This document shows positions 31,052 through 34,597 of a DNA stretch of 64,000 bases, in pieces. Position 1 is the stretch's first letter. The number at the start of each line of letters is the position of its first letter. The translations under genes and the position numbers were made by a program. Source of the stretch: Pseudomonas putida (GTDB taxonomy: Bacteria; Pseudomonadota; Gammaproteobacteria; Pseudomonadales; Pseudomonadaceae); assembly GCF_009883635.2 (NCBI RefSeq), contig NZ_CP026115.2, positions 5,146,001-5,210,000 of the forward strand, written 5' to 3'. The notes beneath the pieces were generated by a model, which had not been told where the DNA came from, did not search any database, and saw only the letters and a program-made list of their open reading frames with translations.

Positions 31052-31585
31052 TCATTCGCTGCGCCGCACGGGGCCTGGCCACATGCTACGCAACACGCCG
31101 TCCCGACGCACCAGGGCATGCATCAGCGCCGCCCCCAGGTGCACCAGCACGGTGGCGAACAACAGGTAGCCGGCCCAGCCATGGGCCTGGCGCAGTACGG
31201 CATACAGTTGCAGGTCGTGCGGGGCGATGGCTGGCAGTTGCAGGGGGCGTGGGTAGCCGCCTGCCGACAGCATCGCCCAGCCCAGCAGCGGCATGGCCAG
31301 CATCAGGCCGTAGAGCAGCAGATGCGAGGCGCCGGCTGCAAAGCGCTGGAATGCCGGCAGGTCGGTGGGCAGTGGCGGATGTGGCAAGGTCAGGCGCAAG
31401 CCTATGCGCACGATCACCAGTACCAGCAATGCCAGGCCCGTGGCCTTGTGCAGTTCGACCAGCTGCGGGTGGCGCGGTGACAGGTCGCCGACCATGCTCA
31501 CGCCGATGAACAGCATGCTGATGATCAGGATTGCCATCAGCCAGTGCACCAGGCGCGCCAAGGGGTGAAAGACTTCAGGTTTCAT
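31052..31585 (-). CDS. Cytochrome b561 family protein
   Basis: 177 residues, four predicted membrane helices. Histidines that can bind two b hemes: HWLMAILII, LHKATGLALL, SHLLLYGLM and AHGWAGYLLF. It overlaps the catalase-like gene by 4 bases (ATGA), so the two are translationally coupled. The cytochrome may deliver electrons from the quinone pool to the peroxidase partner; that is inference. Confidence 0.85.
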   Translation of the reverse strand: MKPEVFHPLARLVHWLMAILIISMLFIGVSMVGDLSPRHPQLVELHKATGLALLVLVIVRIGLRLTLPHPPLPTDLPAFQRFAAGASHLLLYGLMLAMPLLGWAMLSAGGYPRPLQLPAIAPHDLQLYAVLRQAHGWAGYLLFATVLVHLGAALMHALVRRDGVLRSMWPGPVRRSE

Positions 31586-32634
31586 CGCTGTGCTCCTGCG
31601 CCGAGAGACTCGCGGCTGCGGCGGTTGAAGGATTCCGAATAGGCCGCCGAACGGGCGGCGAGGATCGGGTCGGCGGACGGCTCGATGCCGCTGGGCAGGA
31701 TCAACGGGTCGAAGTTCAGGTCACGGCAGGCGCCTTGCTCGGGGGCGTCGACCTGTTCGACCACCAGGGTGCCGGCATCGACGCTGCGGCGCTCGGCTGG
31801 CCATGGGCGGGCCGGGTCGTCCACTGCATCGCCCTGGTCGGCCAGCACCAGGCGCAGGGTCCAGCGCAGCGGCCCTTGGGCCAGGCGCTGTTGCAGGTCG
31901 TGCTGGAGGAACTGCTTGTCGTCGACCTGGCCGGGCAGGGCGGTGAATGGCGTTTGTGGTTCAAGCTGCCAGCGCACCGGGTGCGCCGTGCCGCTGGCAT
32001 CGATCAGGCGGAAGGCGTTGATGCTGTGGTACTGGGTGCTGGCGAAGCTGTCGCTGGGCTTGTAGCTCGCCGCCCATTGGCGAAATGCCGCGCTTTCGGG
32101 GTGGGCGGCGAAGAATGCCTGCAGCTTGGCCGGGTCCGGCTTGCCGGTGGCCGGGTCTGGCGCGCCTGCCAGCACCTGGTCGTAGAAGCCCTGCGGGTTG
32201 CTGACGGCCAGCACCGGTGGGTTGTTCATGCCGGTGCGCCAGATCTGACCGTCATCGGTACTTAGCTGGATCGCCAGGCTGCGCACCGGTACGCCGGTGT
32301 CCGGGGCGAACGGGTTGGCACCGCCGATGGCGAAGCGGCCGATCACCGGCACTCGGGCCTGGCTGAAGGCCCGTGCGGTCGACAAGGCTGCGGCCTGGCC
32401 GCTGGGCTGGAAGTAGCCGCTGACGCACAGGCCCTTGGCGTGGTTCTTGCGATAGCCCGGGTGGTGGCCGGCCTGGGCCTCGAAGGTGTCGATGATGCGT
32501 TGCGGCGTCAGCTGCTGCCCGCCGATCCAGCCAGCGGCATAGGCGAAACCGGCGCCCAGCGCCAGCATCACGGCGCCTATGCCGGCCAGGCGCAGCGCCT
32601 TGGCGGGGCCTTGCAGCGCCGCGAGCGCTTGCAT
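31582..32634 (-). CDS. Catalase-family peroxidase (SrpA-like), membrane-anchored
   Basis: 350 residues. An N-terminal hydrophobic helix (AGIGAVMLALGAGFAYAAGW) anchors or exports it. The distal heme region is YRKNHAKGLCVSGYF, and PVIGRFAIGGANP and VRSLAIQLSTDDGQIWR follow the catalase fold. The usual length of this family (about 350) is met. ATG at 32634 is directly next to the remains of an ECF sigma gene, and no good ribosome site precedes it, so its own promoter and perhaps a few codons may have been lost. Cotranscribed with cytochrome b561. Confidence 0.82.
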   Translation of the reverse strand: MQALAALQGPAKALRLAGIGAVMLALGAGFAYAAGWIGGQQLTPQRIIDTFEAQAGHHPGYRKNHAKGLCVSGYFQPSGQAAALSTARAFSQARVPVIGRFAIGGANPFAPDTGVPVRSLAIQLSTDDGQIWRTGMNNPPVLAVSNPQGFYDQVLAGAPDPATGKPDPAKLQAFFAAHPESAAFRQWAASYKPSDSFASTQYHSINAFRLIDASGTAHPVRWQLEPQTPFTALPGQVDDKQFLQHDLQQRLAQGPLRWTLRLVLADQGDAVDDPARPWPAERRSVDAGTLVVEQVDAPEQGACRDLNFDPLILPSGIEPSADPILAARSAAYSESFNRRSRESLGAGAQR

Positions 32635-32928
32635 GCTCGCTGGCTGTCGTGGTTCGGCCGCAGCACCGTGGAACACGAAGCGGTGGGCGACAATACCGAG
32701 GATATCGTCCTGGCCCAGGCCGACTTGCAGGCCTTCGCCCACCTGTCGACCGAACAGCGGGCCTTGCTGCTGCTGGTCAGCATCGAGGGGCTCAGTTACA
32801 AGGAGGCGGCCGCAGCCCTGGAAATCCCCATCGGTACGGTGATGTCGCGCCTGTCGCGTGCCCGTGCCGCCTTGCGCGAACTGACCGAGGGCAACCCCCA
32901 GCCGCCGGCCTTGCGGAGACTCAAATGA
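32635..32928 (+). pseudogene. ECF sigma factor, 5'-truncated (region 4 only)
   Basis: The frame reads ARWLSWFGR, then LSTEQRALLLLVSIEGLSYK and IPIGTVMSRLSRARAALREL: a complete sigma region 4 with its DNA-binding helix-turn-helix. Region 2, which binds core polymerase and the -10 element, is missing. Upstream of 32635 the DNA is coding sequence of the catalase-like gene on the other strand. The frame stays open there but reads as antisense. The gene ends in an ATGA overlap with the anti-sigma gene. Most likely a deletion fused the sigma gene to the catalase start region. Confidence 0.75.
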
Positions 32929-33677
32929 CACGCCTTATCCCTGGTGAAGACGAGCTGCACGCCTACATCGACGACCGCCTGGAGCCGGCGCGGCGCGCCG
33001 AGGTACAGGCCTGGCTGGCGGCCAACCCGCAGGAAAGCGCGCGGATCGAAGCCTGGCGCAACGACGCCCGGCGCCTGCGCGCGGCCCTGGCAGGGTTTGC
33101 CGAGCAGCCTGGGGCGGCCACGCTTGACCTGCGGCAGGTGCAGCAGCGGGTGCGCCAGCGCCGGCAGCGGCGGCTGGCTTCGGCGGCGGTGTTGCTGCTG
33201 GCCATGGGCGTCGGTGGGTTGGGTGGCTGGCAGGCACGGCAGGTGACCTTGGCCAGCAATGAACTGCCGATGGCCGATGCGGTGCAGGCCCATCGGCTGT
33301 TCGCCGGCAGTGAGGCACTGGATATCCAGGCCAGCGACCCGGTGCAACTGCGCGACTGGCTGGGCCGGCATTTCAGCCGCGTGGGGCAGCTGCCGGACCT
33401 GGCGGGTTACGGCTTCCAGCCGGTGGGCGCGCGGTTGCTCAGCAACGAGCAGGGGCCGGCGGCGCTGCTGGTGTTCCAGGATCGCAACGGCCAGCGCATC
33501 AGCCTGTTTCTGCGCTCGCCCGGTGACCGCTATGAGCGCATGCCGCACGGGCAGCGGGTCGATGGGCAGCTGGAGGCGCGGTACTGGTCGCACGGGGCGT
33601 ACAACTTTGCCTTGGTCAGCGCGGCGGACGACGGGCGTGGGGCGGGGGTAGGGGAGGCGTTGCGCCTTGGGTTGTAG
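32925..33677 (+). CDS. Anti-sigma factor
   Basis: 250 residues. The N-terminal cytoplasmic part (LIPGEDELHAYIDDRLEPAR, then VQAWLAANPQESARIEAWR) is the anti-sigma domain, followed by one membrane helix at about residues 86-106 (ASAAVLLLAMGVGGLGGWQ) and a periplasmic C-terminal domain. It starts within the stop codon of the sigma gene (ATGA), the usual coupled arrangement. Its cognate sigma factor is truncated here, so it may have no target. Confidence 0.8.
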   Translation: MTRLIPGEDELHAYIDDRLEPARRAEVQAWLAANPQESARIEAWRNDARRLRAALAGFAEQPGAATLDLRQVQQRVRQRRQRRLASAAVLLLAMGVGGLGGWQARQVTLASNELPMADAVQAHRLFAGSEALDIQASDPVQLRDWLGRHFSRVGQLPDLAGYGFQPVGARLLSNEQGPAALLVFQDRNGQRISLFLRSPGDRYERMPHGQRVDGQLEARYWSHGAYNFALVSAADDGRGAGVGEALRLGL

Positions 33678-33710
33678 CGGGTGTGTACGGCTCGAGTGTT
33701 CCGGTGGGTT

Positions 33711-33746
33711 TGAGATCGAGCGCCGCCTGCGCGGCGCTCGGTCTCA
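33711..33746. repeat. Short palindrome related to the 79-bp inverted repeat
   Basis: Arms 33711-33726 and 33731-33746 pair over 16 positions with one mismatch. The left arm TGAGATCGAGCGCCGC is identical to bases 3110-3125, the core of the large inverted repeat near 3.2 kb, so both belong to one repeat family. Confidence 0.7.
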
Positions 33747-33784
33747 CAGACGACACATTCCTGACGGCATGTACCCCAGACAAC

Positions 33785-34597
33785 TCAACTCAATTCGAGC
33801 CAGATCGGCGCATGGTCGGAAGGCTTTTCCATCCCGCGCAGCTCATAGTCCACGCCGGCCGCCTTGATCCGTGGCACCAGAGCCTGGGAGGCCATGATCA
33901 GGTCGATGCGCAGCCCGCGCTTGGGGTCATCCTCGAAGCCGCGGCTGCGGTAGTCGAACCAGCTGAAGCGGTCGGCCACCTCCGGGTGCAGGTGGCGGAA
34001 GCTGTCCACCAGGCCCCAACCCTTGAGGCGCTCCATCCACTCGCGCTCCTCCGGCAGGAAGCTGCACTTGCCGGTCTTCAGCCAGCGCTTGGCGTTGTCC
34101 GGGCCGATACCGATATCGCAGTCCTGGGGCGAGATGTTCATGTCGCCCATCACCAGTACCGGCTGGTCGTTCTTGAACTGCCCTTCGAGCAACGCTTGCA
34201 GGTCGCTGTAGAAACGTTGCTTGGCCGGGAACTTGGTGGGATGGTCACGGCTTTCGCCTTGCGGGAAGTAGCCGTTCATGACAGTGATCGGGTTGCCGTC
34301 GGCATCGGCGAAGGTGCCCCAGATGAAGCGCCGCTGGGCATCTTCTTCATCCGTGGCAAAGCCCTTGAACAGGCTCAGGGGAGCCTGGCGCGAGAGCAGG
34401 GCGACCCCGTAGTGGCCTTTCTGGCCGTGGTAGTGCACGTGGTAGCCCAATGCCTGGACATCGGCCAGGGGGAACTGATCGTCGCTGACCTTGGTTTCCT
34501 GCAGGCCGATCACGTCCGGCTGGTGCTTTTCGATCAGCGCCGCCAGCTGGTGCGGGCGGGCACGCAGGCCGTTGATGTTGAAACAGACGATCTTCAT
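33785..34597 (-). CDS. xthA: Exodeoxyribonuclease III
   Basis: 270 residues, full family length. AP endonuclease and 3'-5' exonuclease of base excision repair. Metal and catalytic residues are seen: Asn in FNING, Glu34 in LQETKV, Asp-Asn in MGDMNISP, and Asp261-His262 in SDHAPIW. Stands alone after a hairpin. Confidence 0.93.

Follow-up and report, generated by a model that had tools for sequence, protein, structure and literature searches.

According to the accessible sections of two reports, most ECF26 sigma factors are accompanied by anti-sigma factors of the COG5662 type, and their -35 and -10 elements carry GAA and GT motifs (PMC3511301). A cross-species promoter consensus for the group, GGAATA/GT, is placed upstream of the sigma operon (PMC6180224), and in Sinorhizobium meliloti the sigma factor RpoE1 is described as activating its own operon (PMC3511301, PMC6180224).

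The locus considered here lies in Pseudomonas putida (assembly GCF_009883635.2), within a window of 64,000 nt, that is, the whole stretch of DNA that was analysed (NZ_CP026115.2:5,146,001-5,210,000, forward strand), and all coordinates are relative to this window (Table 1). In its intact state, as seen in relatives, the locus consists of an ECF26-like sigma gene and an anti-sigma gene read rightwards, and of a peroxidase gene and a cytochrome b561 gene read leftwards, with divergent promoter-like sites between the two pairs. The intact locus of P. putida KH-21-134 (L035), whose DNA is 95.8% identical to the window over 10.4 kb, has the same gene order, and it possesses 352 bp that the window lacks, containing the peroxidase start, the two promoter sites, and sigma codons 1-65 with most of codon 66. 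The reading favoured here, with a probability of about 85%, is that the window holds a recently inactivated ECF sigma/anti-sigma switch, in which a fresh pseudogene is accompanied by a silenced pair of operons.

Table 1. Coordinates of the features at the truncated sigma locus, relative to the window.
Feature	Position	Strand	Remarks
Cytochrome b561	31052..31585	-	PF01292, E=4.4e-32; downstream of the catalase-like gene, 4-bp overlap
Catalase-family peroxidase	31582..32634	-	PF00199, E=3.7e-23; native start and first 4 codons lost
Deletion junction	32615..32616	.	1-bp (A) overlap at the joint; ~352 bp of the relatives' DNA absent
ECF sigma remnant	32617..32928	+	last 103 codons and stop: linker and region 4
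Anti-sigma gene	32925..33677	+	250 aa, intact; start overlaps the sigma stop as ATGA

When positions 32400-33100 of the window are aligned with the relatives, the break is sharp and corresponds to a single 352-bp deletion at 32615/32616. Every one of the 101 two-sided alignments leaves 345-558 bp between the aligned blocks (340-554 bp net of unaligned window bases), and because extra DNA is present in all of them the joint is not a chance likeness. These 101 loci are drawn from L004-L110, with some genomes present in both locus sets (for instance, L004 and L035); outside them stand L103, where the stretch is unmatched, and L106-L110, which are alphaproteobacterial and unmatched on the peroxidase side. 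The first-pass annotation had proposed that a deletion joined the two divergent genes, removing region 2 and the promoter region, and had suggested alignment with related Pseudomonas loci; that alignment bears the proposal out, as close relatives keep the intact form and the missing sigma 5' segment and promoter region are found in 101/101. The estimate of ~250 bp that came with it was too low, the missing piece relative to L035 being exactly 352 bp (L035:4340-4691), with a single A common to both sides. Exactly 352 bp are also missing relative to L033, L037, L040 and L041, and 351 bp relative to L036; for L034, the exact junction string was not found, and its alignment leaves a gap of 353 bp together with 1 unaligned window base.

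In L035 coordinates, the catalase-like gene contributes 13 nt to the 352 bp, the intergenic DNA 142 nt and the sigma gene 197 nt. The catalase-like gene thus loses its native start and the sigma gene 65 2/3 codons, or nearly all of region 2, and nothing is left of the intergenic region. A deletion between direct repeats was rejected, the joint having an overlap of 1 bp only. Relocation of the missing piece was likewise rejected, as a genome search for the deleted segment, in which 40 of 158 candidates were scored, returned a sole match of 23 bp that is also present in G077. The event is an ordinary loss-of-function mutation, though a very clean one.

Region 2 is the part of a sigma factor that provides the principal contact with core RNA polymerase and recognises the -10 element. 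In the full-length sigma of L035, region 2 occupies residues 6-70 and region 4 residues 104-152. The window gene is 94% identical to residues 64-169 of a full-length relative, with the front absent, and from the position of the joint its retained codons therefore begin at 32617. A full region 4 had been noted at 32635-32928 in the first-pass annotation, and Pfam profile searches recover it at 32635-32925 (PF08281, E=7.1e-16; PF04545, E=2.8e-10). The absence of region 2 holds as well, since no region 2 model matched at the remnant, where the Pfam hits were limited to the region 4 models and a partial match to PF07638. An ECF sigma factor carries both regions; the window gene has one of them, and judged from its sequence it is a broken former member of the group.

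Candidate starts for the remnant are TTG 32629, GTG 32668 and GTG 32683, and by inspection none has an AGGAGG-like site in the 25 nt upstream, so that they look as poor as ATG 32634 on the opposite strand. Replacement by a paralogous sigma was considered and rejected: the best match in the genome by E-value is 30% identical over residues 14-148, and a second match, at 41% identity, covers region 4 only. The whole genome has 21 region-2 matches, and from these comparisons no other ECF appears to be an obvious substitute for the broken sigma.

The intergenic region of the relatives, ~140 bp in length, carries two divergent sites of the form GGAATA-N(15-18)-GTC. The sigma-side site is found in 69/72 loci, its mirror image on the peroxidase side in 70/72, and both together in 67/72, counts that are inflated by common descent, to which the shared sites are partly due. 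In 200 single-base shuffles per sequence (14,400 in total), the frequencies are 0.17% for the sigma side, 0.11% for the peroxidase side, and 0 of 14,400 for both. By analogy with the ECF26 consensus, the sites would be promoters read by this sigma factor, an arrangement that would imply autoregulation. Two loci, L058 and L081, are without a peroxidase-side motif within 200 nt of the sigma start; their gaps are longer (558 and 466 bp), perhaps through insertions. The intact relatives thus have predicted GGAATA ... GT sites upstream of their own operon and may be regarded as ECF26-like on the grounds of promoter and gene order; the best NCBIfam match of the intact sigma, PRK12511, is below cut-off. 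In the window, a motif search of 32301-33100 found neither promoter-like site, and no GGAATA box is left in 32001-33700.

Genome-wide, the exact motif occurs 5, 6 and 5 times in G000, G045 and G077, respectively, as compared to 1, 4 and 1 times for the reversed control, in a search that would miss degenerate sites. In each of the two intact genomes, the divergent pair accounts for two of these sites. Another two are shared by all three genomes, one lying within a coding frame and the other across the start of a small ORF, and therefore neither looks like a promoter. On the sequence matches, the present locus would be the only clear target of the sigma factor found, with the excess in G000 (5 versus 1) leaving room for others.

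In one event, a single deletion of 352 bp took away the start and nearly the whole region 2 of the sigma gene, the native peroxidase start and the two promoter sites. A remnant without region 2 could not be expected to act as a sigma factor, and neither operon would be appreciably expressed without its promoter. The four-gene module is most likely silenced, as it has lost its activator, its two promoters and the native starts. The anti-sigma gene is still coupled to the remnant by the ATGA overlap pointed out in the first-pass annotation, with its ORF starting at the sigma stop. It shares 96-98% identity with its counterparts in the five best named loci and is gap-free in comparison with seven close relatives; it has no Pfam match, and two anti-sigma models match weakly (E about 1e-6, below cut-offs). 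A hydrophobic stretch, ASAAVLLLAMGVGGLGGW, is visible by eye in its translation. Since its promoter was lost together with the sigma, the anti-sigma is probably silent and not an active orphan. Both the active orphan and a decoy or DNA-binding fragment, which had been offered as outcomes, are unlikely: the local sequence yielded no promoter (in a weak scan), no ribosome site and no GGAATA box, and a decoy would depend on a start, a promoter and target boxes.

The age of the event can be gauged from private changes, which were scored against seven close relatives and three outgroups. There are no private substitutions in the sigma remnant; the anti-sigma gene has 3 synonymous and 2 non-synonymous changes, the latter both in codon 38, the peroxidase gene has 0 and 1, and the b561 gene has 1 and 1, numbers that are too few for a relaxed-selection test. 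Relative to the seven close relatives, the remaining genes of the window copy are gap-free and their ORFs intact. As these genes show no visible decay, the deletion is read from their sequences as probably recent. Intact ORFs with few private changes would fit a recent event, but would also fit continued use. In L040, a close relative, a private W169* change introduces a stop codon close to the end of the b561 gene.

The peroxidase of the relatives begins with MNSPLQGPAK or MTTMNSPLQGPAK (the latter, for instance, in P0123), and L035, L082 and L094, the three Pseudomonas loci checked, share the order peroxidase then b561. With the native start lost, the window gene can be read from an in-frame ATG at 32634 as MQALAALQGPAK, so that MQALAA... 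replaces MNSP..., and the hydrophobic N-terminal stretch, on the basis of which the protein is probably exported, is kept. The first-pass annotation had the sigma frame meeting the start of the catalase-like gene at this position; an in-frame ATG is indeed found there, but it is not the native start, and the joint is at 32615/32616, which falls ~19 bp into the present reading of the catalase-like ORF. From the alignments, ATG 32634 is a chance replacement start within former sigma DNA.

Such a replacement start raises the question of whether the locus has been rewired, with peroxidase and b561 expressed through ATG 32634 from a fortuitous promoter or by read-through. This is unlikely, even with a start codon that is in frame, a hydrophobic stretch that is retained, ORFs that are undamaged, and a gene upstream on the minus strand (33785-34597, labelled exonuclease III-like from its translation) that could give read-through. 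No sigma-70-like promoter turned up when 32400-34000 was scanned for the consensus, a weak test in which the shuffles also have a mean of 0.0, and by inspection no AGGAGG-like ribosome site is present in the 25 nt before 32634; the new promoter that had been suggested for the pair thus finds no backing in this stretch. Between the exonuclease III-like gene and the locus there is also a palindrome at 33717-33740, although a scan for terminators found none. Marginally less probable still is a one-step natural rewiring in which a probably exported peroxidase and its b561 partner would have been freed from ECF control, taking their start from antisense sigma DNA and being expressed constitutively or by read-through. 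The palindrome, which is perfect, GC-rich and of the type CGAGCGCCGCC-N-GCGCGGCGCTCG, lies between the anti-sigma gene and the next gene; with 18 copies in the genome versus 0 for the reversed control, it is probably a dispersed repeat.

Among the genomes and loci compared, the truncation appears to be confined to this genome. The sigma gene is full-length, encoding 169-173 aa, in 72/72 named loci (L033-L105 minus L103), and a conserved short form in close relatives, which would have spoken against a deletion, is thereby rejected. In a protein search of the genus, with one genome per species, 289/398 genomes matched, and in a hand count of the best 150 of the 289 matching rows, 149 begin at residues 1-5 and this genome alone begins at residue 64. 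Two outliers by best E-value, G060 and G260, were considered as second truncations and rejected, their matches being nearly full-length and 44% identical. The junction motif, with up to 3 mismatches allowed, is found in 2/398 genomes, exactly in this genome and with 3 mismatches in G301, where the locus has no match to the window over 150 bp. A deletion seen in one genome only might be an assembly error, with the 352 bp present in the organism but dropped from the assembly. This is very unlikely, as the assembly is a single contig rated 100% complete, about 10 kb of flanking sequence is colinear with L035, and, unlike a repeat collapse, the missing stretch is not a repeat here and the joint has a 1-bp overlap.

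A few region-4-only entries are present in the protein database for more distant relatives, namely P0061 and P0062 (91 aa; 68-69% identical) and P0040 (77 aa); P0062 comes from a contig of 60 kb and P0040 from one of 12 kb. Either their starts were mis-called or they are further truncated copies from this family of sigma factors. Maintenance of the remnant as a protein made up of region 4 alone, binding -35 sites or titrating the anti-sigma, can be set aside as extremely improbable: its region 4 is intact and free of private substitutions and the three entries do exist, but inspection shows neither a good start codon nor a ribosome site for the remnant, the two local GGAATA boxes have been lost, the named relatives have the full-length gene, and several other short entries (P0003-P0007 and P0013) come from contigs of 0.6-3.8 kb or bear a partial label.

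The inactivated switch would represent a natural knock-out of a small and little-studied ECF system, in which the sigma, both divergent promoter sites and the start of the target were lost at once. The comparison with intact relatives exposes a conserved divergent GGAATA-GTC pair that ties an ECF26-like sigma to peroxidase and b561 across Pseudomonas, and the pair, as predicted promoters, provides a concrete hypothesis for the switch. Among the papers listed in a literature search, none dealt with this Pseudomonas switch or its signal. Beyond the genus, sigma and anti-sigma pairs are found in L106-L110 (a Hyphomicrobiales MAG, Bradyrhizobium and Tardiphaga) at 41-44% and 31-33% identity, respectively, with no peroxidase or b561 match in the fetched locus; the regulator pair is therefore conserved more widely than the neighbour pair.

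Set beside the S. meliloti systems, as far as these are covered in the accessible sections of the reports, the Pseudomonas loci are alike in that the RpoE1, RpoE3, RpoE4 and RpoE6 genes with their EcfR anti-sigmas also have the sigma gene followed by the anti-sigma gene (PMC3511301, PMC6180224), and the promoter-like sites of the Pseudomonas relatives match the ECF26 consensus GGAATA/GT (PMC6180224). The neighbouring genes differ, with sulfite genes beside RpoE1 and RpoE4, whereas the Pseudomonas relatives have a divergent catalase-family peroxidase and b561. The window differs from the S. meliloti systems in a further respect, namely that its sigma is broken.
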